Part shown: positions 4,412 through 50,890 of the stretch, piece by piece
Numbering within the stretch: position 1 is the first letter of the stretch
How the letters are laid out: each line of letters starts with the position of its first letter
Assembly (NCBI RefSeq): GCF_024199795.1
Contig: NZ_JANADK010000001.1
Coordinates: forward strand, 1,612,001-1,676,000
Direction of reading: 5' to 3'
DNA length: 64,000 bases
Source of the DNA: Bradyrhizobium sp. CCGB01
GTDB lineage: Bacteria; Pseudomonadota; Alphaproteobacteria; Rhizobiales; Xanthobacteraceae
The notes under the pieces: generated by a model
Database searches by the model: none
What the model was told of the DNA's origin: nothing
What the model saw: only the letters and a program-made list of their open reading frames with translations
Translations under genes and position numbers: made by a program

Positions 4412-5712
4412 TCACGCGTCGATGGCCGGGCTCGAGGCCGACAGATAGCTCAATCGGGCCAATTCACCGCCGGCGATGCGCTCGAACTCCGCGATCTGGC
4501 GGGCGTCAAGTCCTGCGTGTGACGGCCAAGCCGACCGGCGTGCAAGGGTTTGCCCGCGGACTCGGCCGCCGGGTGGCCGTAGGGCCGTACGACGCAGGTT
4601 AGCCTCATCGACTTCGGACGGGGAAAGGCCTTGCCTCCGACGATCTGGTACGATCCGACACGCGAAGGTCCGGCGCAGGTCGCGGTTCGTCACATAGGGG
4701 ATCACGCCGCGGTCCCGTTGGCGCCACATGAACAAATAGAACGTGCCGTGGCCGACGGGCCTCGATGGGTCCTTGGCCGAAGGGAAGAACCAGCCGTATT
4801 CATTGACGTTGATGGATGAGATCAACTCTGCGGCGAGATTCGGCACCGGAACGGCGTGGGGCTGGTCGTTCTTGGTCGTGGACCAGTCGATGATCTTCTC
4901 CTTAGCGTCCCATTGGTCGATGTGGAGGCTCGCGATCTCTTCGACCCGCTGGCCGGTCAGCATGAGAATTCGGACCGCACGGGTATACGGTGGATGGACA
5001 GGCGTATCGGGGCTCGCCAGCCAGCGATACAGCTCGACGAACTCGTCCTCGTCGAGCCAGCGCGTGCCCTTGACCTTCGGTTCGGTCGGAATGCCGGTCG
5101 CCGGATTGAAGGGGATGCGGAAGCGCCGAGCGGATTGCTGCCGATAATCGTTGTCTGACTTCATGTCCCAGCTGAAGGCAGCGTGTATGTAGGACCGCAC
5201 ATGATCGGCCATCGACTTGGCTCCGCGTTCATAGATCGGGCGGATCAGTTCGATGATTTCCTCTGACTCGATATCGCGGGCGAGGCGGTTGCGTCCGAGC
5301 GTGTCGGCGACCTTGTTCAGTCCTTTTTCGGTTTCTTTCCGGGAGGGCTGTCCGCAGCCTTGAGCGAAGCGACATAGCCCTCGAACAGATCGGCCACAGT
5401 GCCAGGGGCGCGTGTCGGTCGCGATTTTGATGCTTCGGCCCTTCTGGATCACGTCAGCGAAGTCGCGCTTGAAGATTTCTCGCGCCTGCGCGAGCGACAT
5501 TGACGGGTAGGCGCCGAGCTTCTTCTTGGTATGCTTCCCGTCGCGCCACTGCTGCGCCATCCAGTCGACCGTGACGCACTTCGGCAGGGCTTGAGGACCA
5601 GGACGAGGCGACCGGTACCGCGCCCTTCGCCGTCGGCAAGGTTTTCTTGCTTCCGGCTCATCTCGATGCGCTTGAGCGCATGTCGGATTGCTGTGTCGGT
5701 CAGGCTTGGCAT
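4412..5712 (-). pseudogene. Tyrosine-type site-specific integrase (P4-like), frameshifted
   Basis: The N-terminus (MPSLTDTAIRHALKR) begins at 5712. A shift near 5590 leads into the DUF4102-type arm domain (KKLGAYPSMSLAQAR) and a second near 5400 into the core-binding domain. The catalytic domain shows the first catalytic Arg (LTGQRVEEI) and an R-x-x-R-like TNRDLRRTF, but past this the frame is lost and no catalytic Tyr is recognisable. Intact relatives are about 400-420 aa and drive excision and integration of genomic islands at tRNA genes. It marks a former island junction but should be inactive. I could not find a flanking tRNA gene. Confidence 0.75.
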
Positions 5713-5973
5713 GGCGTTCCTCCGGGTCCCGCAACTGGGATCGGTCGAGGAGAAACGGGGATCGTTTGCTGGCCTGCGATCGACTTGACACAGCCGAATG
5801 TCCCGTCAATGCGCTGGCCGAGCGCATAGCCAGCTGTGCCGAGTCATTTGTGCGTCGACTCGTTAATAGAGTCTTCTGCATGGTAGGCTTTGTCCGGCGC
5901 CAAGCGTGATCGCTGTCGCCCGGTCGGCACGAGGCGAAGACATGATGGCCCTGCAGGTCCCTCGAAGGCGTCA

Positions 5974-21171: not shown

Positions 21172-21530
21172 GCTATCACTTTACCGGTCAACAACCCGGC
21201 GCCATAGTGCGTTTCAGGGCGCCTATATTCTGAAGTCCCATCATAAGTGGCATCGCTAGGGCGCGCAGGCGTTGCGCGCTGCTCAAAACATGTATTCGCC
21301 CAGGCATGGTCGATAGATGTAAGCCATGCGGCCAAACGGAATTGTCTTGCAATTGTCATGCTCGTCGGGGGCTGCAGGTGAAGTAGTTTATCGAGACAAG
21401 CTCGAGGAGAAAATTCCTTTTGTTTGGACCCACGTGGTCTAGGAGGTTTTTGTTTCGGCCTCTCGAAGGGGATAGCGCTGCCAGTTTCTGAAACTTCAGC
21501 GCCGGCGCGTTGCAGAGCCCTCGGTGGCAC
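21168..21530 (-). CDS. Unknown 120-aa protein coupled to the sulfate-activation operon
   Basis: A GTG at 21530 overlaps the stop of cysNC (TAGTG), and its own stop overlaps the ATG of the next gene (ATGA). The frame fills the gap exactly, which argues for a real, translationally coupled gene. The product begins with a basic, proline-rich stretch and continues with LDKLLHLQPPTSMTIARQF. It has no recognisable motif, signal peptide or membrane helix. It could instead be untranslated spacer that happens to be open. Codon-level conservation in relatives would settle this. Confidence 0.45.
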   Translation of the reverse strand: MPPRALQRAGAEVSETGSAIPFERPKQKPPRPRGSKQKEFSPRACLDKLLHLQPPTSMTIARQFRLAAWLTSIDHAWANTCFEQRATPARPSDATYDGTSEYRRPETHYGAGLLTGKVIA

Positions 21531-23419
21531 TATGTCCGAGCGATGATCCCTCGCTCCGCCAGGCAGTTTAGCACCGCCTCAGCCAACTGCCCTGGTTGCT
21601 TGCCCAGCGTTTTCAAGTGGATATCCGGCACACGTGGCGCTTCATACGGCGCATCGATGCCAGTAAAGTTCGTGATCTTGCCGGATCTTGCCTTGGCATA
21701 GAGGCCCTTTGAATCACGCCGAACGCATTCATCTAATGGTGTATCTACGAACACCTCGACGAACTCGCGGTCGCCCACGAGCTTGCGCACCATGTCTCGG
21801 TCGGCTTTGTAGGGTGAGATGAACGAGCAGATGACGATCAGGCCGCTTTCCAGCATCAATTTGGCCACTTCACCAGCACGTCGGATGTTCTCGACGCGAT
21901 CTGCATCAGTAAACCCGAGATCGCAATTGAGGCCGTGGCGGAGGTTGTCGCCGTCCAGCAGCGTCGTGTGATGCGACGTCGCGTACAGCTTTCGATCGAC
22001 GATATTCGCAATCGTAGACTTGCCGGCGCCGGAAAGCCCAGTGAACCAGATGATGCACGGCCTCTGTTGCTTGAGCGCGGAACGCTCCTGCTTCCCAATC
22101 CACAGTGTCTGCCAGACGGTATTGCTTGCCCGCCGGAGCGGAAAATCGATCATTCCCGCGCCAACGGTGCGGTTGGTATAGCGGTCGATCACAATGAAAG
22201 ATCCGGTGCGCCTGTTAACGTGGTAGGGATCGAAGCTCGCAGGCACGACGGTCGCAACGTTACAGCGGCCGATCTCGTTGAGACCCAATGTGGTCGCCGT
22301 GAGACGCTCATGCTTATTGACGTCAATCTTGTACTTGATGGAGATGACTCTGCCGGATGCAATCGTTTGCGTACCAATCCGAAACGCATAAGAGCGGCCC
22401 GGCACCATCGGCTCTTCGTCCATCCAGATCAGATGAGCGGCAAACTGGTCGGCGACCTCAGGGCGCTGCGTGGGGCTCGCAAAGACGTCGCCGCGGCTAA
22501 CATCGATCTCATCTTCGAGCGTAAGCGTCACCGCGTCGCCCGCTTCGGCAACCGCAAGATCACCATCGTGAGTCACAATCCGCGTCACGCGTGAACTGCG
22601 CCCCGAAGTTGCCACGATGATTTCATCACCTACCGCGGTGCTTCCTGAGGCAACCGTGCCGGCATACCCTCGGAAATCCAGATTGGGCCGGTTCACCCAC
22701 TGCACCGGAAAGCGGAAGGGTAGGTCGGTCGTTTCGGATTGTATGTCGATCGTCTCGAGGTAATCCAGCAGGGATTGGCCTTGGTACCAATCAGTCTTGC
22801 CGGATAGGTAGATGATGTTGTCGCCGTACCTGGCGGAGATTGGGAACGGGACGATTGACTTGAAGCCGAGCGCCGCAGCGAAGGCGACATAATCGCGCAC
22901 GATGCCGTCGAAGACATCCTTACGGTAGTCGACGAGGTCGATTTTGTTAACGGCCACGACGACGTGCCCGATCCCCAATAGCGAGCAGATGAACGAGTGG
23001 CGCTTGGTTTGCTCCAGAACTCCTTTGCGTGCATCGATCAGGATGATGGCGAGCTGGGCGTTGGAGGCTCCGGTCGCCATATTGCGAGTATACTGTTCAT
23101 GCCCTGGCGTGTCGGCGACCATGAACGATCGACGCGGCGTGGTGAAGAACCGATAGGCGACGTCGATTGTAATGCCTTGTTCGCGTTCCGCCTCAAGACC
23201 ATCGACCAATAAAGCAAAATCGATGTCCTCGCCAGTCGTGCCGTGCTTGGCGCTGTCGCGCGCGAGCGCCAGCAGCTGATCCTCATAGATCATCTTGCTG
23301 TCGTGCAGGAGTCGCCCGATCAGCGTCGATTTGCCATCGTCGACCGAGCCACAGGTGATGAATCGCAGTTGATCCTTGCTGACGATATCGTCAAGGCATC
23401 GCGCGGGTTCCATACCCAT
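21530..23419 (-). CDS. cysNC: Bifunctional sulfate adenylyltransferase subunit 1 / APS kinase
   Basis: The N-terminal two thirds is a translation-factor-like GTPase (CysN). With residues counted from a TTG one codon upstream, it has the P-loop GSVDDGKST (25-33), DTPGH (104-108) and NKID (159-162). The C-terminal third (about 455-630) is an APS kinase with P-loop GLSGAGKST (462-470), DGDNLRHG and the FISPYKADR segment. With CysD it makes adenosine 5'-phosphosulfate from ATP and sulfate, driven by GTP, and the kinase domain makes PAPS. In rhizobia the same fusion is called NodQ when it serves Nod-factor sulfation; nothing here shows a nod promoter, so the general name is used. The ATG at 23419 overlaps the cysD stop (TGATG). 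Complete, about 629 aa. Confidence 0.92.
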   Translation of the reverse strand: MGMEPARCLDDIVSKDQLRFITCGSVDDGKSTLIGRLLHDSKMIYEDQLLALARDSAKHGTTGEDIDFALLVDGLEAEREQGITIDVAYRFFTTPRRSFMVADTPGHEQYTRNMATGASNAQLAIILIDARKGVLEQTKRHSFICSLLGIGHVVVAVNKIDLVDYRKDVFDGIVRDYVAFAAALGFKSIVPFPISARYGDNIIYLSGKTDWYQGQSLLDYLETIDIQSETTDLPFRFPVQWVNRPNLDFRGYAGTVASGSTAVGDEIIVATSGRSSRVTRIVTHDGDLAVAEAGDAVTLTLEDEIDVSRGDVFASPTQRPEVADQFAAHLIWMDEEPMVPGRSYAFRIGTQTIASGRVISIKYKIDVNKHERLTATTLGLNEIGRCNVATVVPASFDPYHVNRRTGSFIVIDRYTNRTVGAGMIDFPLRRASNTVWQTLWIGKQERSALKQQRPCIIWFTGLSGAGKSTIANIVDRKLYATSHHTTLLDGDNLRHGLNCDLGFTDADRVENIRRAGEVAKLMLESGLIVICSFISPYKADRDMVRKLVGDREFVEVFVDTPLDECVRRDSKGLYAKARSGKITNFTGIDAPYEAPRVPDIHLKTLGKQPGQLAEAVLNCLAERGIIART

Positions 23420-24354
23420 CAAAAGTATCCTTCCCGCTTCTTTTTCTCCATCGAAGCTGCATCATCGGTGTCGATTAGACGCCCTTGGCGTTCTGAGAAC
23501 CTCGCAACCCGCATTTCGGCGACGATGTCCTCGATGGTGGTGGCCTCCGACTCAATGGCGCCGCTCAGGGGGTAGCATCCGAGGGTGCGGAAGCGGATCG
23601 TACGCATTTCGGGGGTCTCGTTCGGCCGGAGCGGGAGCCGGTCGTCGTCCATCATGATCAGGGCGCCGTTCCGATGCACCACAGGTCGCCGTTTCGCAAA
23701 GTAGAGAGGAACAAGGGAGATGTTTTCAAACATGATGTATTCCCAGATGTCGAACTCCGTCCAATTCGACATTGCGAACACCCTCATGGTCTCGCCTTGC
23801 CGGATGCGGGTGTTGAACAGGTTCCAGAATTCGGGCCGTTGGTTGCGCGGATCCCAGACATGTCCTGCCGAGCGGAACGAAAAAATGCGCTCCTTGGCGC
23901 GGCTTTTCTCTTCGTCCCGACGCGCGCCGCCGAATGCCGCATTAAATCCGTACAGATCGAGCGCCTGCTTGAGAGCGTCGCTTTTCATGACCTGCGTGTG
24001 CAGCGCCGAGCCGGAGTCGATGGGATTAATGCCGCGGGCGATACCTTCTTTGTTAACGTGGACGATCAGATCGGCTCCCATGCGCTTGGCCGTCTCGTCG
24101 CGAAAGGTGATCATCTCGCGGAACTTCCAGGTCGTGTCGATGTGCATCAGCGGGAAAGGCAGCTTCGCCGGATAAAATGCCTTCGCCGCAAGGTGCAGCA
24201 TGACAGTGGAATCCTTGCCGATTGAATAGAGCATCACCGGCGCTTTGAACTCGGCTACAACTTCGCGCATGATTTCGATGGACTCGGCCTCGAGCCGGCG
24301 CAAATGTCGAGGCAGCGTGTCCGTTTTGAGTGCGGTCATGTCCTGCATGTTCAT
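23419..24354 (-). CDS. cysD: Sulfate adenylyltransferase subunit 2
   Basis: An intact CysD/NodP protein of about 311 aa. It has the PP-loop ATPase motif [11 protein letters not shown], the sulfate-site segment [37 protein letters not shown] and the conserved C-terminal REGYF. The ATG at 24354 is chosen because GAGG lies nine bases upstream; other ATGs at 24363, 24348 and 24339 are possible. It forms the catalytic partner of CysN, adenylating sulfate. The first gene of a four-gene unit. I found no nod box or CysB-like site in the 240 bases ahead of it, and no cysH nearby, so the route stops at APS/PAPS. Confidence 0.92.
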
Positions 24355-24363
24355 CTTGAACAT

Positions 24364-34630: not shown

Positions 34631-34889
34631 CCCTAGCGGGCCGCCGTCGCTAACCCGGGCTCGCCGGTCCTGCTTTCGGGGCCGGTCATTTCGAAAACCG
34701 TTCGAGTAGCGCGCCTTCCGTTTGACGCTGTTCAAACTCTTCGCCCGGCGTGTACGCCCTGAAGACAAGGGAGTTGCTCGAGCGCTTCTTGGGAACGGAT
34801 CGCTGCGGAGAGAGCTTGCAAGCACTTGGCGGTCCCCTCATCTCCTTCCACCAACCGGCCAGCAAGAGCCAGTTGCTCTTGCAATTGGC

Positions 34890-35536
34890 TCAGTGTTGCT
34901 GTGGGGCACGCCGGGCCAAGTCGCGGCAACAGCGCGGCGGTATGGCGTGTCGCGTTCATTGCTGCTACGTGGCGACGGTCGTTTCGGCCGGAGCCGAAGG
35001 ATGCCGCCGATCAACCGAGCTTCGTACCGGCGATGGTGGTCGCGGAATCAGGGCCGACGCCTTGTCCAGCCACGCCGGCCAGCAGCGGCGGGTCGATCGA
35101 GATCGAGTTTGCTGCCGGGGCTCGGATGCGGATCACGGGCGCGGTCGACGCGGCGACGCTGAAGGCCGCCGTGGCGGCGCTGGCAGATGGACGCCTGCGG
35201 TGATTCCCGTTGCGTCGGGCGTGCGGGTGTGGATTGCGACCGGCCACACCGATATGCGTCGCGGCATGAACTCGCTGGGCTTGCTGGTGCAGGAAGCCTT
35301 CAAGCGAGACCCGCACGGCGGTGATCTCTACGTGTTCCGTGGCAAAAGCGGGCAAGCTGATCAAGATCCTTTGGCACGATGGACTGCACCCTCATCGCCA
35401 CCGCCAAACTCAACGGCATCGATCCATAGGCCTGGCTCGCCGACGTGCTCGCCCGCCTGCCGGACCACCCCGCAAAGCGCATTCGCGAACTCCTACCTTG
35501 GAATTGGCGCCCTCAGAACGTCGCTCACGCGGCGTG
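34890..35536 (+). mobile_element. IS66-family element, remnant of three genes
   Basis: The first orf remnant shows PGQVAATARRYGVSRSLLL and, one shift later, FVPAMVVAES ... GARMRITGAVDAATLKAA, ending at 35203 (TnpA type). A GTG at 35202 starts the TnpB type with IATGHTDMRRGMNSL, VQEAFKRDP and DLYVFRGK; a shift near 35350 then gives LIKILWHDG. The C-terminal end of the TnpC transposase follows as DVLARLPDHPAKRIREL and LPWNWRPQN, stop at 35536. The bulk of tnpC is deleted. Confidence 0.75.
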
Positions 35537-35543
35537 AACGCAG

Positions 35544-36052
35544 TCAGCCAGGCGGCACCTCGCCGCGCTGCGCATTGCCGAAGGCCACCACCCGATCGCG
35601 CTGCTCGTCGGTATCCGGCACGATCAGGCCTCGCGAAGCTCTAATCAGCGCAAGCGCTTCCTCCGCCTCGATTCCGCAACAGATCAGCGCGCAAGCTGCA
35701 ATACCAAAGACCGGCCAATCCCCGCCCGGCAATGGATCGCGATGGAACGACCGTCTCGCAAGCCGGTGGCCAACAAGTGAGCGATCTGCGAAGCCTCACG
35801 CCGGGATTCTGGTAGTCCACGATCTGGAATCGGGAAAGAAATGAAGTCGATCCCATTAGAACGGCAAAGCTCGGCATCACGCTGCAATCCAAGCTCCGAA
35901 ACCTCCTCGTGCTCCAGAAGGCTCACCACCACATCGACGCCGGAGTTCTTCCACTCGTTCACCTCCGTCTCCAACCACTCGTCAGCGCGAGGACGCGCCA
36001 TAATTGCTATCCGTCCAACCGCTTGAATCGCGATCCAATGTAATCGGGACAT
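35544..36052 (-). pseudogene. Dual-specificity protein phosphatase with one frameshift
   Basis: From 36052 the frame reads through LEHEEVSELGLQRDAEL and FPIPDRGLP to the phosphatase loop HCRAGIGRS, the Cys-x5-Arg active site. One base is then missing near 35698. After correction it continues GIAACALICCGIEAEEALALI and ends at 35544. The full protein would be about 169 aa, a normal length for small bacterial tyrosine phosphatases. The catalytic loop is intact, so a single sequencing or assembly error would restore a working gene. Confidence 0.75.
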
Positions 36053-38725: not shown

Positions 38726-39890
38726 GGACACCGAAGCTGCAATAAGCAGATTGAGTTGTTTGTCTTTCATTGTGACGAAGTGTCCCGTGCCGGAAAGGAG
38801 CGAGTGGCGCGTTGTGTCCGTCATTTTCGAGGCAATCTTGCGCAACACAATGCAAAAGCTGCAGCGACGTCTCATTGCGGGCCGGTGTCGCCCCAAGCTG
38901 CCCAAATTTGCAATCCGCGTGGATGAGACCGAGCCCGAAGTACTGGTCTGCATGAGGTTTATCCCGCAGCTGCGATCAACCCACCAGTCCAGATCGAGTG
39001 CCCATAACGCGAGCAAGTGCGCGGCGTTATCTCGGCATCGTCCTCAAGTGAGGCGCGCCATCGTTTGCCTCGGCCGCGCGATCTTGCTCGAGCACAACGA
39101 GGACTGCGCGGTCCATTGCATCCGCTACATGACCTGGAAACCTCGTGTCATCGAGCGGCGATCGAGTCATGGTCGCTCCGGCTGCGGCAACACCACTTTG
39201 CTTGGCCCTGTCGACGATCGGTCGACCGTCTCGTTTGAGTTTGAGAGGTGCAAAGCTTGCCTGCATCAACATCGAATCAAGTGGAGGCCCGGCAGCATCG
39301 GAAGCCTGGCTGCAGGCGAGCCTTCACACGAAGCAGCCAGACGCGCGATTGATTGCATCCCGCCCTCAATGCGCAGATGGTACAGCTGCTTATGTGGTGC
39401 AAAGCCCTGGCCGCGGAGAACTGCGGCGCGACATTAAGTTCCAGAGAATGAGCTTGAATCGAATCCCGACGCTAATGACATCCAGCGTATCCACGAAGCT
39501 CTCTTTCAGGCTTGTGTAAGGCCGTCCCGCTTGAGGAAGGCGTCAGTTGATGCGTGTGAAAGCTTACAATCTGACGCCACGTGAGATACAAGATGTTTTA
39601 TCGCTCATTGAACCGGATGGTTTGACCAGGGTGGGTCTCCTCGCCACCTGGATAACGCGTCCTGCGGAGCAGTCTCATGGACAGCGAACAGATCGGGACC
39701 GCGTAAAGCTCTGCCGTGACATGGGTTGTCGTGGTGACCTGCTTTGTCCTTTAGCGAGCTAAGCGCCGTCTCGTTTGTTGAAAGCGCGCTCTATGCTGCT
39801 GGCGGAAATAGATAGCCGATAATGCGTATTGAAGTGTTCGAGATGCCGCCGCCTGATTGCAGCGGAGGCGTTCGGTCTGAAAGCCTAACC
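38726..39890. other. Gene-poor stretch
   Basis: Long overlapping frames on both strands (for example 38598-39437 plus) lack recognisable motifs and starts. A short plus frame at 39550 (MRVKAYNLTPREIQDVLSL) resembles the beginning of a regulator but ends after 71 codons. Confidence 0.4.
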
Positions 39891-40475
39891 TCACAATCGA
39901 TAGCTCTCTGCGAGCCGCAAAAAATTTGCGAGCAGAACGTCTCCCTCTTGGGTCAGTATCGATTCAGGGTGGAACTGCACGCCAAACGTGCGCTGATCGC
40001 GAGGCGCAAGGGCCATGATCTCACTCTCGTCTGAATGCGCCGTTACGTTAAGATGCGGGGTGTACGACTGATCGATCTCAACAATAAGGGAATGATAGCG
40101 CCCCACGCGAAGAGCAGAAGGAAGTCCTTCGAATAGCGTCGCCCCATCATGCGTAATGTATGATGACCGACCGTGCATGGGGCGACGCGCACGTGCCACG
40201 CGTCCGCCGAAAACACTCCCGATGCACTGATGCCCAAGGCAGATGCCTAAGATCGGGAGACGGCCTGAAAGTTCGCGAACGATCGAGTTCGATATTCCGG
40301 CTTCTATTGGGGAGCAGGGACCGGGGGAGATGACCACGGCGCGCGGCTTGAGGCGGGCAATATCACTGACGCTGATCGCATCATTCCGGACAATCTCCGT
40401 GACTTCACCGAGCCGGCGGAAATAGCGGGCAATGTTGAAGACGAAGGAGTCATAATTGTCGATGATAACAATCAA
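39891..40475 (-). CDS. pabA: Aminodeoxychorismate synthase, glutamine amidotransferase subunit
   Basis: A complete class I amidotransferase of 194 aa. It opens IVIIDNYDSFVFN and has the nucleophile Cys79 in ILGICLGHQ and His169/Glu171 in GVQFHPES. It supplies ammonia to PabB for the conversion of chorismate to 4-amino-4-deoxychorismate, the precursor of p-aminobenzoate and folate. TrpG proteins are nearly identical in motif, so the call rests on the partner. It starts with TTG overlapping the pabB stop (TTGA), which implies coupled translation. Confidence 0.85.
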   Translation of the reverse strand: MIVIIDNYDSFVFNIARYFRRLGEVTEIVRNDAISVSDIARLKPRAVVISPGPCSPIEAGISNSIVRELSGRLPILGICLGHQCIGSVFGGRVARARRPMHGRSSYITHDGATLFEGLPSALRVGRYHSLIVEIDQSYTPHLNVTAHSDESEIMALAPRDQRTFGVQFHPESILTQEGDVLLANFLRLAESYRL

Positions 40476-41868
40476 GAATCACCGTAAGAACGGGCGCGGA
40501 ATGCGGCAAACATTCGCTGGGCTTTAGCCAGAGTCTCCTCGTATTCGGCCGCTGGATCCGACAAGGCCGTTATCCCGCCGCCTGCGTGAAACACAGCCAA
40601 GTCGTTGTCGATCGCGACAGTGCGAATCGCAATATTGGTATCCATGTGCCCGTTGAAGCCGATGAAGCCGATCGCCCCGCAGTAGACCTCTCGTGCTAGT
40701 TGCTCGATTTCCGTAATGATTTCCATTGACCTCACCTTTGGCGCCCCGGTGATAGAGCCACCTGGAAAGCAGGCGCGAAGAAGAGTGACGGCGTCTTGGC
40801 CCCCTTCAAGTTCACCCCGTAACGACCGACACGAGGTGGTGCACCGAGGCGTACGACTCCAGCTTGCACAGCGCTTGAATATCGACTGAATGGGGAGTGC
40901 AAACGCATGACAGGTCACTCCGCAGCAGGTCGACGAACATGATGTTCTCGGCACGATCTTTGTCGGATGTGACGAGGAGTTGAGCGCGATGCTGATCTTC
41001 CCTGGAATCAGCGGAGCGCGCGATCGTGCCTTTTGATCGGGCGCGTTTCGACCTGTCGTCCGTCTAGCTTCAGGAAACGCTCCGGCGAGCTTGATGCAAT
41101 CGTGACATTGCCGTAACGAAGGAGTGCTGCGAATGGCGCGGGGTTCTTTGACCGCAGTCGGCAGTAGAAGGCAACTGAATCGAATGAGGCTGGTAGCCGG
41201 GCGCTAAAACGCTGCGCAATGTTGGCTTGAAAGACGTCTCCAGCCAGAATCAGGTCGATGACGCGCTGTACCGCCGCAATGTAGCCCGCGCGGCTGAAGT
41301 TCGAATGCCATGGTCCGATTGCGCCGCAGGCGCCATTCCGCGGCGATTCTGAATTGGCAAGAAGTGCTGTTAACTCATCGGCTCGATGGCGTGCACGCGC
41401 GGGTCGGCACGCGGGATCCTGTTCCGGCCAGCCTGTGGAGACGATCCAGCATCTGCCGTTGTGGTGATCGAAGCTGACGACGACGTCACAGAAGGACAGG
41501 ACGGATTGAGGCAAGCGGCGTCCAGAGGTTGCCGGAACTGACAATTGCTCTATTGTCCTGTTTAGATCGTAACCAAAGAATCCGGCAGCTCCTCCCTGGA
41601 ATGGCGGGAGGTCGGTGCGATGCTGTTGCGGATAGTTGGCGAGCAGGCTGCGAAGGACGTCCCATGGATCGCCGTCAAGACCCTGTCCGTTCCAACTCGC
41701 CCGTCGGTCCGCGACCATATAGGTACCGAACGGGTCGCAGGTCAGATATGAGTAGCGCCCAAGTGGCTCGCCGCTTGCTGCGCTATCAAGAAATGTAAGA
41801 TGGGAGCGGTGGGCGAGACGCTGCATTGCCGTGACAGGGGCAATCCATTGCAGTTCGTGGACGTGCAT
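40472..41868 (-). pseudogene. pabB: Aminodeoxychorismate synthase component I with two one-base insertions
   Basis: Starts MHVHELQWIAPVTAMQRL at 41868. All blocks of a chorismate-binding enzyme follow: GGAAGFFGYDL, DVFQANIAQRFSARLP, ASSSPERFLKL. Near 41025 the ETRPIK motif meets a run of four A where three are expected; in the corrected frame it reads PIKGT, and this Lys is diagnostic of PabB rather than TrpE. DKDRAENIMFVDLLR follows. Near 40807 an extra G in GGGG shifts again, before GELEGGQDAV, FPGGSITGAPKVRSMEI and AGGGI. Full length is about 465 codons. Both lesions are in homopolymers, so they may be real inactivation or sequence error. It lies upstream of pabA. Confidence 0.85.
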
Positions 41869-41960: not shown

Positions 41961-42308
41961 CTACGACCAACTTGGCCTTCGCCAATAGACGCCCGCGCGG
42001 CGGGTGAGGAATCGCACATCCGTCGATATGTCGTAGTCTGCTGCGAACCGCAACTCGCGTAGTGGACGTACCCGCTTGATTGATTCTTGGTAAAGATCAT
42101 GCGCTTTGTAAGCTGCAAGTTGCGCCTCGGTCTCGAACTCACCATATACAACGACGTCGATGTCGTTGCCAAGCTGGTCGCTCTTGCGGTTGCAAGCGAC
42201 CTCGAGCCGGCGCGCATGCGGGATCTTCGTGAGAACCAATAGGCCTTCGATGATCTCGTCAATGTGTCCCTTATCGTTGGCGGTAAACAAAACGATGTGG
42301 CGGATCAT
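41961..42308 (-). CDS. Dabb-domain (stress-responsive A/B barrel) protein (115 aa)
   Basis: The start at 42308 (MIRHIVLFTANDKGHIDEI) is the typical Dabb beginning and is preferred over the frame opening at 42377. The family pattern continues with a basic-arginine strand (ARRLEVACNRKSDQLG), DIDVVVYGEF and LAAYKAHDLYQESIKRV. These small dimeric ferredoxin-like barrels have varied roles; no catalytic residues can be assigned. It stands between bioR and pabB on the same strand, with 158 and 93 bases of spacing. Confidence 0.75.
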   Translation of the reverse strand: MIRHIVLFTANDKGHIDEIIEGLLVLTKIPHARRLEVACNRKSDQLGNDIDVVVYGEFETEAQLAAYKAHDLYQESIKRVRPLRELRFAADYDISTDVRFLTRRAGVYWRRPSWS

Positions 42309-42465
42309 GGATGTCTCTATAAGTGTTTCCAGAGATGGGTGCATAGCTAGCTTGGGATCGCGCTCTCCGCAACGCAACTCTTCTGCCTCGCGGGTTTATG
42401 ATCCATTGTTCGCGGCTCGTTGTACCCCGCACACCGTAACTCACCCCGTCAGAAACGCCTTCCGA

Positions 42466-43095
42466 TCAGGATGTCGGGAGGGCCAGACGCTCAATGGTCT
42501 GAATGTGACGCGCGAGCAGGTGACAGGCTTGATCAAGGTTGCGCGCCCGCAGGGCCTGCAAAATCAGGCGGTGATCTTGGCTGGTCCGTGGGCGCCAGCC
42601 GGCACTTCGCGCCTTCGCGAACACCAGCCTAGAATTTGCAAGCTGTAGTTCGTCGAGGCTGGCAAGCAGGCGCGGCATCGCACAGGGGGCAACCAGGGCA
42701 TAGTGAAAGGCCCGGTTGGCCATCTCGAAATCCTCAATGGTTTGTGCCTTGTCTCCTTCAATCAGGGCGAGTTCGATGCGTGCGAGGTGGATGGATGAGA
42801 GCTTTGGGGCTGCATTGCGCAGCGCGACTACCTCGAGCGCGGCGCGCATCTCAGCGATCTCCTTCACCGAATTCGTGTCGAGCGGAGCAACCCGCACGCC
42901 GCGGCGCGGCGCACTCACGACAAGATGCTGAGCCTCCAATTGTCGAAAAGCTTCGCGCACCGGGACATGACTTGAGTTGAATTCCCGCGCGACGTGTTCC
43001 TGCCGGAGTGGACAGTCCGGCTGCAGCGCGCCGTTGATAATGCGCTCGCCAATCGACTTAGCGATGCGCCCAGCAGTCGTCCTGTTCTCGCTCAT
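42466..43095 (-). CDS. bioR: GntR-family (FCD) biotin regulator, BioR-like
   Basis: 209 aa. The N-terminal winged helix (about 8-75) contains IINGALQPDCPLRQEHV and HVPVREAFRQLEAQHLV. The C-terminal FCD helical domain (about 80-205) contains EIAEMRAALEVVALR and ANRAFHYAL. BioR is the GntR-type repressor of biotin genes in alphaproteobacteria. The call is supported by divergent placement next to bioB and three TTATCTA sites in the shared promoter, one of them 6 bases ahead of its own ATG, which implies autoregulation. Intact. Confidence 0.85.
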   Translation of the reverse strand: MSENRTTAGRIAKSIGERIINGALQPDCPLRQEHVAREFNSSHVPVREAFRQLEAQHLVVSAPRRGVRVAPLDTNSVKEIAEMRAALEVVALRNAAPKLSSIHLARIELALIEGDKAQTIEDFEMANRAFHYALVAPCAMPRLLASLDELQLANSRLVFAKARSAGWRPRTSQDHRLILQALRARNLDQACHLLARHIQTIERLALPTS

Positions 43096-43184: not shown

Positions 43185-43196
43185 ATTATCTATGAT
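43185..43196 (+). promoter_or_regulatory. BioR box 3 (bioB side)
   Basis: ATTATCTATGAT contains TTATCTATGA, nine of ten consensus bases. It lies 8 bases from box 2, inverted, and spans the upstream-most ATG of bioB (43192), favouring the start at 43213. Confidence 0.65.
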
Positions 43197-43212
43197 TGCG
43201 GACTGGAGGCTT

Positions 43213-44249
43213 ATGAAGGTTTGTACTCGAGTTGACCGAAACGAAGGCTGCGAGTCAGCGCAGGTTCGCGGGAAATGGAAACGTATCGAAGCCGAAGCGT
43301 TCTATGGTTTGCCGTTTGCCGAGGCGATGTTTCGCGCGCAACGCGTTCACCGAGATAACTTCGATCCCAACCACGTCGAAACGGCTAGCCTGCTCAGCAT
43401 CAAGACCGGGGGGCTGCCCGGAAGACTGCGGCTATCGCGCAGAGCGCGCACTACGAGAGCGTGGGTGAAAGCGACCCGCCTGATGGATCGCCCTGAAGTG
43501 GTCGCCACCGCACCGCGGGCCAAGGAAGCAGGCGCGACCCGCTTCTGCATGGCCGCGGCCTGGCGCAGTCCGAAAGACCGTAACCTCGATCGAGTCTGCG
43601 AGATGGTCCGTGCCGTCAAGAATCTTGACTTGGAAACCTGCGTCACGCGCGGCATGCTGACGCCGAAACAGGCGGTGCTGCTGTCCGATGCGGGGCTCGA
43701 CTTCTACAACCACAACATTGACACTTCACCTGATTTCTATGGCAGGTTCATCACCACTCGCACGCTGCAGGATCAAATTGACACGCTCGAGCACGTGCGC
43801 CAGGCAGGCATCAAGATCTGCTGCGGCGGCATTGTCGGCATGGGCAAGCGTGCTGAGGATCGGCTCGAGCTGCTCGTCCTGCTCGCCAATCTCCCAAAGC
43901 CTCCGGAAGGCCTGCTGATCAATCTGTGGAACGAGGTCAAGCGGGTTCCTGTCATTGGCAGTGCCGAGGCTCCCGATCCGATCGCGCTGGTGCGTCTGAT
44001 CGCGACCGCCCGGATCATGATGCCGAAGAGCGTGATTCGCTTGTCCGCGGGACGACGTGACATCACCGATGAATGGCATGCGTTGAGTTTTTTAGCCGGT
44101 GCGAACTCGATTTTCATCGGGGACGTGCTGCTCACGACCAAGAATCCGAAACCGAGCGGGACGCCAAGTCGCTGTCCAGGCTCGACATCACATCCGCCCT
44201 TGGCTGGACCAAATCGGCAGCAAGCACGCTTTGCAGATATGAGGATTAG
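43213..44249 (+). pseudogene. bioB: Biotin synthase with scrambled radical-SAM motif, open frame
   Basis: Most of the protein is clearly Bio[50 protein letters not shown] and [13 protein letters not shown], then [20 protein letters not shown]. The CxxxCxxC iron-sulfur motif is gone from the reading frame. An extra G in a run of six (43408-43413), loss of two bases near 43435 and loss of two near 43466 together change the length by -3, so the frame closes again but codons 67-85 read nonsense. In the +1 frame the sequence still spells GGCPEDCGY. The third cysteine codon lost its TG. Near 44151 one base is lost, so the natural stop at 44249 is passed. The product should be unable to hold the catalytic cluster. 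The start at 43213 is preferred over 43192, which overlaps a BioR box. Confidence 0.85.
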
Positions 44250-44259
44250 GTTAAAAAAA

Positions 44260-44611
44260 ATGCAAATTTCCTTGCTGAAAGGCAAAATCCACTGCGCATC
44301 AGTGACTGAAGCCGATCTGCACTATGAAGGCTCGATTTCAATCGATCGCGCGCTACTGGACGCGGCAGGGTTCCTGGCGAACGAACGCGTCAAAAGTCAC
44401 AATGCCGAAACCGGCGCGCACTTCGCCACGTTTGCGACCGAGGCGCCCTGCGGCTCGGGGACCGTAGACTTGAATGGTGCGGCCGCGCGATTCGCGTTAC
44501 CCGGAGACAATTAGCATCCTTGCCTACGTCTTACTTGATGAGGCGGAAGCCAAAACGTTCAGGCCCCGTATTGTACTAGTCGATCGCGAAAATCGCATTG
44601 TGCCGGTTTGA
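44260..44611 (+). pseudogene. panD: Aspartate 1-decarboxylase, fused to bioB and truncated
   Basis: [20 protein letters not shown] begins at 44260, and Gly24-Ser25 in HYEGSIS is the self-cleavage site that makes the pyruvoyl cofactor. Lys9, Thr57 and Asn72 are kept. The positions equivalent to the substrate-binding Arg54 and the catalytic Tyr58 are His and Phe (HFATF). A two-base loss near 44506 (one AC of ACAC) ends the frame at 44514 after 84 codons; corrected, it continues [15 protein letters not shown] to a TGA at 44609. Because of the bioB frameshift, panD is also in frame with bioB. PanD makes beta-alanine for pantothenate and fits with panB and panC downstream. Confidence 0.8.
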
Positions 44612-44691
44612 TAGTCAAGACGCCGGCCGGAAGCTGTCTTTCTTCACGCATGTCGGAATATTGCGCAATTTCAATGCCCTCAAGGTGCAGA

Positions 44692-45840
44692 ATGAACTCG
44701 ATCCACCCAGCACAATATGCCGGATATGCCGCAGCTTTGAATGTCCTCAAACAAGATCACCGACTGCGCGGCCTCAAGCCGCGTGCTGGAGTCGATTTCA
44801 CATCGAACGACTATCTGGCGCTCGCGAGCGCGCCGCGCATGAAGAAGGCTGTCTTGGCCGCGATCGAGGCCGGCACGCCGATCGGGGCCGGCGGGTCGCG
44901 GCTCCTGCGCGGCAATTGTGAGGAGCACGAAAGCCTGGAAGCTGAAGCTGCCAGGTTCTTTGGCGCCGAGACAGCACTCTTCTTTGGCGGCGGCTACGTC
45001 GCAAATTTTGCGATCCTGACGACGGTGCCGCAGAAAGGCGATCTGCTCGTTCTCGATGATCTGGTGCACGCGAGCATCCATGAAGGCGCGCGAGCCGGCC
45101 GCGCTGACTTCCGGATGAGCGCGCATAATGATCCAGAGGCGATTGAAGGTACGATTCGTGACTGGCGGGCAGATGGCGGAGTTGGCCGCATCTGGATCGT
45201 GGCCGAAAGTCTCTATAGCATGGACGGAGATTTTGCGCCGCTCAAAGAGCTGGTTGCGATCGCCGACCGGCATGATGCATTCCTGATGGTGGATGAGGCG
45301 CATGCCACGGGTGTCTACGGTGAGCAGGGCCGGGGGCTCACCGCTCCTTACGAGGGGCGAGAGAACCTCCTGGTTGTTCATACCTGCGGCAAAGCGCTGG
45401 GTGCCGCGGGCGCGCTTGTCACCGCGTCCAAGATGCTGCGAGACTTCATGGTCAATCGTTGCCGTCCGTTCATCTTCACCACCGCACCCTCGCCGTTGCT
45501 AGCGATCGCAGTGCGGCAGGCGATTCTGATCCTGCAGCAGGAACCTGAGCTTCAGCAACGTCTGGCCAAGCTGGTCGCGTTCGCGCATCGGCAGATGACA
45601 GAGCGTGGTTGCAAGAGTCCCTCAGATTCGCAGATCGTGCCATTCATGGTCGGCGACAATGTGCGTGCGATGCGGCTCGCCTCTGCACTTCAGGCTCGCG
45701 GCTTCGACATTCGCGGAATCCGTCCCCCAACGGTGCCGGCGGGCACGGCCCGCTTGCGGATCTCGCTAACTCTCAATGTCGTCGAAGATCACGTATGCGC
45801 AATGCTCGACGCCTTGGTCGAGGAAGGCGCACTTCGATGA
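44692..45840 (+). CDS. bioF: 8-amino-7-oxononanoate synthase
   Basis: 382 aa, complete. It is an alpha-oxoamine synthase with [49 protein letters not shown], the PLP ring aspartate in [14 protein letters not shown] (Asp201) and the PLP lysine in [12 protein letters not shown] (Lys234). It condenses pimeloyl-ACP/CoA with alanine, the first committed step of biotin assembly. The ATG at 44692 gives the normal N-terminus ([10 protein letters not shown]). Its stop overlaps the bioD start (ATGA). Confidence 0.92.
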
Positions 45841-46481
45841 GTGCAGGGATCGTAGTGACGGGCACAGATACCGGGATCGGAAAGACGGTGTTTGCCGCGG
45901 GGCTGTCTAGCCTCCTTGGCGCGAAATATTGGAAGCCGATTCAGGCCGGCCTCGATGGAGAGACTGATGCCGAGACCGTCGCTCGTCTTGGCCGTCTCTC
46001 ACCCGGTCGGATCGTGCCGGAGTGCTATCGCCTTCGCACGCCAGCCTCGCCTCACTATTCTGCCGAGCTTGATGGAGTTCGCATTGAAGCAGCTTCGCTC
46101 GATGTGCCAGATACCGGTCGGCAGCCATTGGTGATCGAGGGCGCCGGCGGGCTTATGGTGCCGCTGAGCGGCGACACACTCTACATTGACGTATTCGAGC
46201 GCTGGCGGCTTCCAATCGTGCTTTGCGCGAGCACAGCGCTTGGCACTATCAATCATTCACTGCTGTCGATAGAGGCTCTTCGAAAGCGTGAGATTCCTAT
46301 TCTCGGCATGGCCTTCATTGGCGAAAGAAATGCCGAGACTCAGACCGTCATTCGCGAGATGGGGCGGGTACGTTGGCTCGGACGATTGCCATGGCTCTCT
46401 CCCCTCACCGCGGATACGCTGCAGACAACGTTCAAGACCTCTTTTCGTGCAGATAGCTTCAAATTGTATGCCAAAGAATAA
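45837..46481 (+). CDS. bioD: Dethiobiotin synthetase
   Basis: 214 aa, complete. It starts [17 protein letters not shown], the P-loop of the family, followed by [18 protein letters not shown] (substrate lysine region), [13 protein letters not shown] and [14 protein letters not shown]. It closes the ureido ring of dethiobiotin using ATP and CO2. The ATG overlaps the bioF stop by four bases, and the gene overlaps bioA by 14 bases. Translational coupling is therefore likely. Confidence 0.92.
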
Positions 46482-47751
46482 ATCTCCGATCTGGCATCCC
46501 TTCACGCAACACGCTCTTCAAGACGAAATGACGAGGGTTGTTCGGGGCGAGGGGGCCTATCTCCACACCGCGGATGGTCGCCGTATCATCGATGCGATAT
46601 CATCCTGGTGGGTGGTGACGCATGGTCATTGTCACCCTCATATCGTGCGCGCGATCCAGGAGCAGGCAGGCAAGCTCAACCAAATCATCTTTGCCGGGCA
46701 TACTCATTATCCTGCGGAGGAGGTTGCGGCGCAGCTTCTGAAATGTGCGCCCCGCGGGCTCGAACATGTCTTCTTTTCCGACAGCGGTTCAGCCAGCGTG
46801 GAAGTCGCGCTTAAAATGGCGCTCGGCTATTGGCATAATATCGGCAAGCAGCGCATACGCATTGTCGTCATGCAACATTCCTATCATGGCGACACGGTAG
46901 GCGGAATGTCGGTTGGTGCGAGAGGCGCATTCAACGCGGCGTATGAGCCCTTGCTATTCGACGTCACCTCGGTCCCTTTCCCCGCAACGGGTCGAGAGCA
47001 GGACACGCTTGACGCCCTCGATTCTGTATGTCGGAGCGAAATGCCGGCAGCCTTCATCGTGGAGCCCCTCATAGCGGGGGCCGGCGGAATGCTGATGTAT
47101 CCAGCCTGGGTGCTCACAGAGATGAAGCGGATTTGCGAGGCATCGGACGTCCTGTTCATTGCCGACGAGGTCATGACAGGCTGGGGCCGAACGGGAACAC
47201 TCTTCGCGTGCGAGCAGGCCAACGTCACACCCGATATCGTCTGCTATTCCAAGGGAATTACGGGCGGAGCGCTTCCCCTTGCGGTAACGCTCTGTCGCGC
47301 GGATATTTTCGATGCCCACTATTCGAAAGATCGGACGCGCACGTTCTTTCATTCAAGTTCATATACCGCAAATCCGGTGGCCTGTGCGGCTGCAAGGGCC
47401 AATCTGGATCTCTGGCAAGGTGCCGAAACTCGCCAACGCATGGCGGCGATTGCCGCGATGCAAGAACAGGCAATTGAGCCGTTCCGGGCCGATGCGCGCT
47501 TCGCAAACGTTCGTCGAACTGGCACGATTACGGCACTCGATCTGAACGCGAACGATGCGGGCTACCTGGCACATATTGGTCCGAAGCTTCACGCTTTCTT
47601 CAGAGAGCGCAATCTTCTGCTGCGGCCGCTCGGCAATACGATTTACGTGATGCCGCCGTATTGTGCGACAGCGGCAGACCTTGATGAAATCTATGCCGGC
47701 ATCTGGGATGCCGCCGATGCGCTGTCGGGAAGGGACGCCTTGCGTGCATAG
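46468..47751 (+). CDS. bioA: Adenosylmethionine-8-amino-7-oxononanoate aminotransferase
   Basis: 427 aa, a class III PLP aminotransferase. It has [27 protein letters not shown] (the double Trp is typical of BioA), [17 protein letters not shown], the PLP aspartate 233 in [15 protein letters not shown] and the PLP lysine 262 in [11 protein letters not shown]. It uses SAM as amino donor to make 7,8-diaminopelargonate. The start at 46468 lies inside the end of bioD. Complete; no bioZ or other pimelate gene follows in the next kilobase. Confidence 0.92.
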
Positions 47752-50029: not shown

Positions 50030-50043
50030 GATAAAGCTCAACA

Positions 50044-50890
50044 TGCAAACAATTACGACGGTCGCCGAACTCCGTGCCGCTCTTGCAAAAGCGCGTGACC
50101 AACGTGTCGGCTTTGTGCCGACAATGGGCTACCTGCACGACGGCCACCTGGCATTGGTCGAGGCGAGTCGTGCACAATCCGACGTCACGGTCGTAAGTAT
50201 CTTTGTCAACCCCACTCAATTCGGGCCAACCGAGGACCTCAGCACGTATCCGCGCGACTTTTTGCGCGATGAAAAGCTGTGTCGCGATGCCGGTGTTGCG
50301 ATCGTCTTCGCTCCAGAGGCACAAGAGGTCTATCCGGCTCAGTATGACACCTTCGTCGAAGCCGGCGAACTCGCAAAATCATTGTGCGGGGCGTTCAGAC
50401 CTGGACACTTTCGCGGCGTCGCAACCGTCGTCTGCAAGCTGATCAACATGGTGCAGCCGGATATCGCATTCTTCGGACAGAAGGATTTCCAGCAATTCGC
50501 GGTCGTGCGTCGGATGGCAATTGACCTCAATCTCCCCATCGAGATCGTCACAGTGCCCACGGTTCGGGAGCCGGACGGGCTCGCCATGAGTAGCCGCAAT
50601 CGCTATCTCACTACGAAGAGCGCCAGCGGGCTCTTGCGATCAGTCGCGGTCTGTTCGCGGCGGAGGCCGAACTGCGCGCAGGCGAGCGCGAATGCGAGAA
50701 GCTTATCGCAATGGCCCGGCGGCATTTGGATGAAATCGACCGGCTGCAGTACCTCGAACTCGTTGATGCCGAAACGCTTGAGCCGGCATCGAATCCCTTA
50801 ACCCATCCAGCTGCTCTATGCGCCGCGGCTTACGTTGGCTCCACGCGGCTCATTGACAACGTCATCCTGAAGCCGCAAGTGAGCGACTAG
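50044..50890 (+). pseudogene. panC: Pantothenate synthetase with one frameshift
   Basis: From the ATG at 50044 the frame gives FVPTMGYLHDGHLALVE (the HIGH-like motif), SIFVNPTQFGPTEDL, FRPGHFRGVATVV, FFGQKDFQQFAVVRR and the KMSKS-like region SSRNRYL. Near 50613 a single base is missing; corrected, the protein continues EERQRALAISRGLFAAEAEL and LQYLELVDAETLEP, to a TAG at 50888. About 282 codons, a normal length. Uncorrected, the product keeps the whole N-terminal catalytic domain but has a nonsense tail ending at 50801. It joins pantoate and beta-alanine using ATP. Confidence 0.88.

Follow-up and report, generated by a model that had tools for sequence, protein, structure and literature searches.

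The window analyzed here is a stretch of 64,000 nucleotides that spans positions 1612001-1676000 of the single 9,317,328-base contig of a 9.3 Mb Bradyrhizobium genome. It carries a pabAB-gntR-bioB-panD-bioF-bioD-bioA cluster with a panC further along (Table 1), in which several frames are broken and in which the bioB frame stays open without the motif on which the enzyme depends. The only NodA match in the genome (324.8 bits, cut-off 22) lies at 1708462-1709043 of the contig, about 53 kb downstream of bioB, and the NodA profile found no match in 14 control genomes. The window also holds a phage-integrase-family gene, an IS66-type match and a pair of overlapping genes that we take to be CysNC/NodQ-like and CysD/NodP-like, perhaps serving sulfate activation for Nod factors. 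Related clusters are found on plasmids, with 18 matching records of which 14 are from Bradyrhizobium and 9 match over at least 80% of the block. From this setting we infer, with good support, that the cluster belongs to a symbiosis island. For B. icense LMTR 13, biotin genes have been reported from a symbiosis island (PMC5843721); the B. icense BioB (P0036) is among the homologues of the window protein and has the motif CPEDCGYC, whereas the motif is broken in the window copy.

Table 1. Features of the window, with positions counted from its first base.
Feature	Position	Strand	Basis or remark
Phage-integrase-family gene	4412-5881		
GTPase/APS-kinase fusion gene overlapping PAPS-reductase-type gene	21530-24363		Domain matches
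IS66-type match	34750-35844		
pabA/trpG-type amidotransferase gene, open	39891..40475	-	
pabB, broken by two +1 indels (40815, 41031)	40472..41868	-	Same 286-aa fragment on another contig
Dabb-domain ORF, private +1 at 41992 near C-terminal end	41961..42377	-	
GntR/FCD regulator gene, divergent from bioB, open	42466..43095	-	
bioB (residues 1 to ~320), very probably decayed, read on into panD	43192..44514	+	440-aa open frame; TIGR00433, TIGR00223
First bioB indel, +1	43406..43406	+	Against ten of ten relatives
Out-of-frame stretch, residues 75-91 altered, CxxxCxxC lost	43407..43459	+	Alignment
Second bioB indel, -2 (or two single-base losses around a T)	43435..43436, between these bases	+	Against ten of ten relatives
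Third bioB indel, +1, native frame regained, net 0	43459..43459	+	Against ten of ten relatives
Fourth bioB indel, -1, uncompensated, C-terminus shifted	44149..44151, place alignment-dependent	+	Alignment with ten relatives
panD (aspartate decarboxylase) remnant, -2 at ~44508	44260..44611	+	Sole panD match in genome, below cut-off
bioF, open	44608..45840	+	TIGR00858 352 bits, below cut-off of 426
bioD, open	45837..46481	+	Only bioD above cut-off in genome
bioA, open	46468..47751	+	Only bioA above cut-off in genome
panC in two frames, shift at ~50615-50624	50043..50869	+	

Four private indels in bioB

The indels were called by aligning the window bioB with ten relatives, a comparison that the preliminary description of this locus had proposed, and all four proved to be private to the window, being absent from each of the ten aligned relatives. 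The preliminary description had correctly seen that the bioB frame runs open from 43192 while CxxxCxxC is replaced by out-of-frame residues. It had counted the changes as +1, -2 and -2, summing to -3, but at every site all ten relatives agree on +1 (43406), -2 (after 43435) and +1 (43459), for a net change of 0. The frame stays open across the lost motif because these clustered indels offset one another. Scrambling had been placed at codons 67-85, which is close but not exact, the altered stretch being residues 75-91 from the ATG at 43192 or 68-84 from an inner ATG at 43213. The CxxxCxxC motif of BioB binds a 4Fe-4S cluster. CPEDCGYC of the relatives becomes LPGRLRLS in the window, and the +1 frame of the window reads [10 protein letters not shown], in which two of the three cysteine codons are present; the third, which had also been thought to survive in that frame, was lost because of the -2 indel. 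None of the four indels lengthens or shortens a long homopolymer of the window. Between them, the window matches the relatives nearly base for base, and gene conversion from a different sequence was rejected on this ground. Programmed recoding was likewise discarded, since it would require three frameshifts in 54 bases and the codon for the third cysteine no longer exists.

The first three indels resemble a compensatory set in that they lie near one another and have a net length divisible by 3 (+1/-2/+1). The frame is nevertheless not kept to the native end of the gene, where the fourth indel, a -1 near 44150 that had escaped the preliminary description, carries the ORF past that end and into panD. 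It does so only because the shifted frame meets no stop before the one at 44512, which lies within panD and just past the -2 of that gene. Pairs of compensatory frameshifting mutations (pCFM), as treated in a study that covers vertebrate and insect genes (PMC8935012), likewise combine nearby frame-restoring indels with a scrambled stretch; here, by contrast, three indels run through a catalytic motif and a fourth, uncompensated one follows. We found no report of this bioB lesion in the literature searched.

The resulting 440-residue ORF matches the biotin synthase profile TIGR00433 over homologous residues 28-321 with about 286 bits (285.7-286.7), which exceeds the curated cut-off of 225, and the PanD profile TIGR00223 over residues 357-439 with 76.6 bits. 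By its score the window protein is a BioB, but it has no CxxxCxxC in frame and its C-terminus is shifted. An enzyme that is very probably dead would in this way be called alive by automated annotation, the BioB cut-off being passed with the catalytic motif gone.

A second record of the same lesion

Our homologue list consists of the best 120 of 7,999 scored candidate proteins, and CxxxCxxC is kept in all 119 listed homologues other than P0002. This protein is 99% identical to the window's and is encoded on a contig of 9,227,337 bases, compared with 9,317,328 bases for the contig of the window. It shares both the scrambled stretch and the C-terminal shift with the window protein, and 348 of 352 aligned residues are identical. 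The four differences are R13G near the start and the last three aligned residues, at the point where an A-run sets the two reading frames apart; the one-base difference in this run, near 44254, may be a sequencing error. The P0002 record is likely, though not proved, to represent an independent strain and not a second assembly of the same strain. In the window the fourth indel joins bioB at its end to panD in a single frame (44149-44514), whereas P0002 ends without a PanD part, and the fusion is probably accidental.

The preliminary description had named a cluster of sequencing errors as the dull alternative, that is, an ordinary intact bioB misread during sequencing or assembly. The single-base indels are indeed clustered in one place, the substitutions resemble those of a working gene, and the A-run difference between the two records may itself be such an error. 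We nevertheless consider this very unlikely. Another contig carries the same scrambled residues together with the same C-terminal shift, no bioB indel is of the long-homopolymer type, and the genome completeness score of the window's assembly is 100%. A 286-residue pabB fragment identical to that of the window also occurs on two contigs, the longest of 19,343 bases, and both the pabB and the panC lesions recur on that contig, which could however come from the same strain. None of the best 120 pabB matches listed comes from the contig of 9,227,337 bases. Assembly error was set aside because of P0002, whose shared lesion all but refutes it unless both records share reads. What we find in bioB is what is expected of a pseudogene, a disabling lesion that is absent from the orthologues and is no artefact.

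Neighboring genes and redundancy

Over a conserved block of 8.3 kb, identity between the window and six relatives is 82.8-84.4%. Private indels whose length is not divisible by 3 number 17 in this block of the window, compared with 7, 3, 8, 4, 7 and 4 in the relatives, where they lie mostly in spacers or at gene edges. Of these 17, pabB accounts for two, bioB for four, panD for one and the Dabb ORF, close to its end, for one; the remaining nine fall in spacers or upstream of where bioF probably starts. All eight genes tested in the six relatives are open or within a few codons of open. A private +1/-1 pair at 44629/44651 was left out of the coding count; it lies upstream of the bioF ORF starts in two of three relatives (44674, 44692) and inside the ORF of the third (44608). 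In the spacer past the 3′ end of pabA (39541-39818), small private indels are numerous in both the window and the relatives, and this spacer is apparently free of constraint.

A second bioB is present at 3394996-3395913 of the genome, scoring 422.9 bits versus about 286 for the window copy and having the motif CPEDCGYC, so that another intact copy exists, as is expected for a pseudogene. A second panC above the cut-off and without stops is found at 5.736 Mb. For bioA and bioD the window copy is the only one above the cut-off in the genome (one of 10 and one of 2 matches, respectively), and bioF has two similar matches in the genome, both below the cut-off. There is no second panD in the genome, the sole match being the broken window copy. 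Nor does any pabB in the genome exceed the cut-off, the matches being the three broken pieces in the window and a chorismate-binding match of 206.9 bits at 2.413 Mb. The latter lies within a 724-codon open frame and, in our reading, may be an anthranilate synthase. Since second copies exist for bioB and panC and none above the cut-off exists for panD and pabB, two of the four broken genes are redundant. The idea that only redundant genes have decayed was accordingly rejected; redundancy fits bioB but is not a rule for the whole cluster.

Among the 117 genus genomes drawn, 62 have a panD copy above the cut-off, 54 have no match at all, and the window's genome is the one that has a match but none above the cut-off; two others (G037 and G045) have a split panD plus another copy above it. 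Since the only panD match here is broken and 54 of the 117 genomes have none, beta-alanine presumably comes from a route other than panD.

Constraint and the age of the lesion

Private substitutions in the window bioB number 20, 12 and 34 at the first, second and third codon positions, so that 34 of 66 are third-position changes. The ratio of nonsynonymous to synonymous changes, 33/33 in the window compared with 48/56 pooled over six relatives (Fisher p 0.64), is not raised, so the substitutions alone do not establish a relaxed constraint. Their pattern suggests that bioB was constrained along most of its branch and that it began to decay recently.

Outside the scrambled part, 8 of the 270 columns tested have lost a residue that is invariant in 120 other BioBs, among them E219K after GMG and G251R, while the highest count among the 119 intact homologues is 2; this control comparison favors the window because the panel contains close sisters of most controls. 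The second bioB of the same genome, which is only distantly related within the family, departs at 11 invariant columns. When near sisters were left out at identities of 0.833, 0.85, 0.88 and 0.92, the control maxima were 8, 7, 3 and 3 (19, 79, 119 and 119 controls), and one of the 19 controls at the strictest threshold reaches the window's 8, although the 0.833 and 0.85 thresholds leave fewer comparison sequences and so raise the counts. We regard the number of invariant residues lost as no more than moderate evidence of decay.

Interpretation of the open frame

Our results suggest that the locus is very probably a recent pseudogene of an accessory bioB in the pabAB-gntR-bioB-panD-bioF-bioD-bioA cluster of this Bradyrhizobium genome. 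The copy would have lost constraint because the other bioB, at 3.395 Mb, has an intact motif, and this loss is the likely cause of its decay. Small indels would then have followed, three of them clustered and summing to zero, which would have scrambled the iron-sulfur loop, and a fourth that would have shifted the C-terminus, with neighboring genes decaying stepwise. Any protein made would be without the three cysteines that hold the radical-SAM cluster; judging from sequence, the window product is probably inactive and the 3.395 Mb copy probably supplies the biotin synthase activity. The 17 private frame-breaking indels, compared with 3 to 8 per relative among the six, support decay. Some observations are harder to fit, namely that the frame is open through the first three indels, which occurs in only 2-3% of uniform simulations, that panD and pabB are broken though they have no second copy above the cut-off, and that NCBIfam still scores the window protein above the BioB cut-off. 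Even so, most of what is observed fits a redundant copy that is decaying in the ordinary way.

How odd the open frame is was estimated by simulating indels on three intact relatives (L090, L087 and L091), a fourth, L086, being dropped because an upstream one-base insertion brings its first frame to a stop at 33 bases. With three uniformly placed indels the frame is still open at about 44150 in 2.3-3.3% of simulations, with two in 9-11% and with four in 2-4%; with three indels confined to 54 bases it is open in 20-22%. The chance that three of four indels fall within 54 bases is 0.030 in 1014 bases, and that any three of seven do so is 0.006 in 7058 coding bases. Clustering multiplied by an open frame, about 0.03 x 0.2, gives about 0.006, a figure that is post hoc and ignores a single complex mutation. 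Clustered indels with a net sum of zero are mildly unlikely by chance, which leaves room for frame restoration at one step.

Such a step could have been taken if, after the first indel, the second and third were favored for keeping bioB translated to near its end and so avoiding polarity on bioF, bioD and bioA, with bioB acting as a translated leader and not as an enzyme. In the window's other frames a stop is predicted at about 43494 with the first indel alone and at about 43466 with the first two, and the downstream bioD and bioA, for which the genome has no other copy above the cut-off, are open; the chance figures for clustering and for an open frame point the same way. Those figures are post hoc, however, one complex mutation would produce such a cluster too, and neither the fourth indel nor the -2 of panD was compensated, so that we hold this scenario to be unlikely. 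If the frame was restored under selection, the locus would offer a testable case of polarity shaping the decay of a pseudogene. The broader proposal in the preliminary description, that selection holds the frame open without its active site, is not supported in view of the loss of the frame at the fourth indel, the broken pabB, panD and panC, and the second bioB with its intact motif at 3.395 Mb. It is also highly improbable that the scrambled protein has acquired a new function that needs no iron-sulfur cluster. The frame is open, the protein is mostly conserved outside residues 75-91, and two records share the scrambled form, but the protein has lost eight residues that are invariant in 120 other BioBs, the BATS match at the C-terminus covers only profile positions 16-75 of 88 (1-87 in P0003), and the window protein and P0002 have different C-terminal ends.

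Read as a recent pseudogene, bioB illustrates how an accessory vitamin cluster decays step by step; bioD and bioA, which have no second copy above the cut-off, are still open there. Stepwise loss is supported by an intact panC of 282 residues on a contig of 9,227,337 bases, the size of P0002's contig, the panC of the window being broken. P0002 and P0243 were assigned to one record only from their equal contig size; if P0002 and the intact panC do come from the same record, the damage to bioB predates that to panC. About 190 kb downstream of the window, at 1865878-1866252 of the contig, there is a third panC remnant, which contains two TAG stops in frame.
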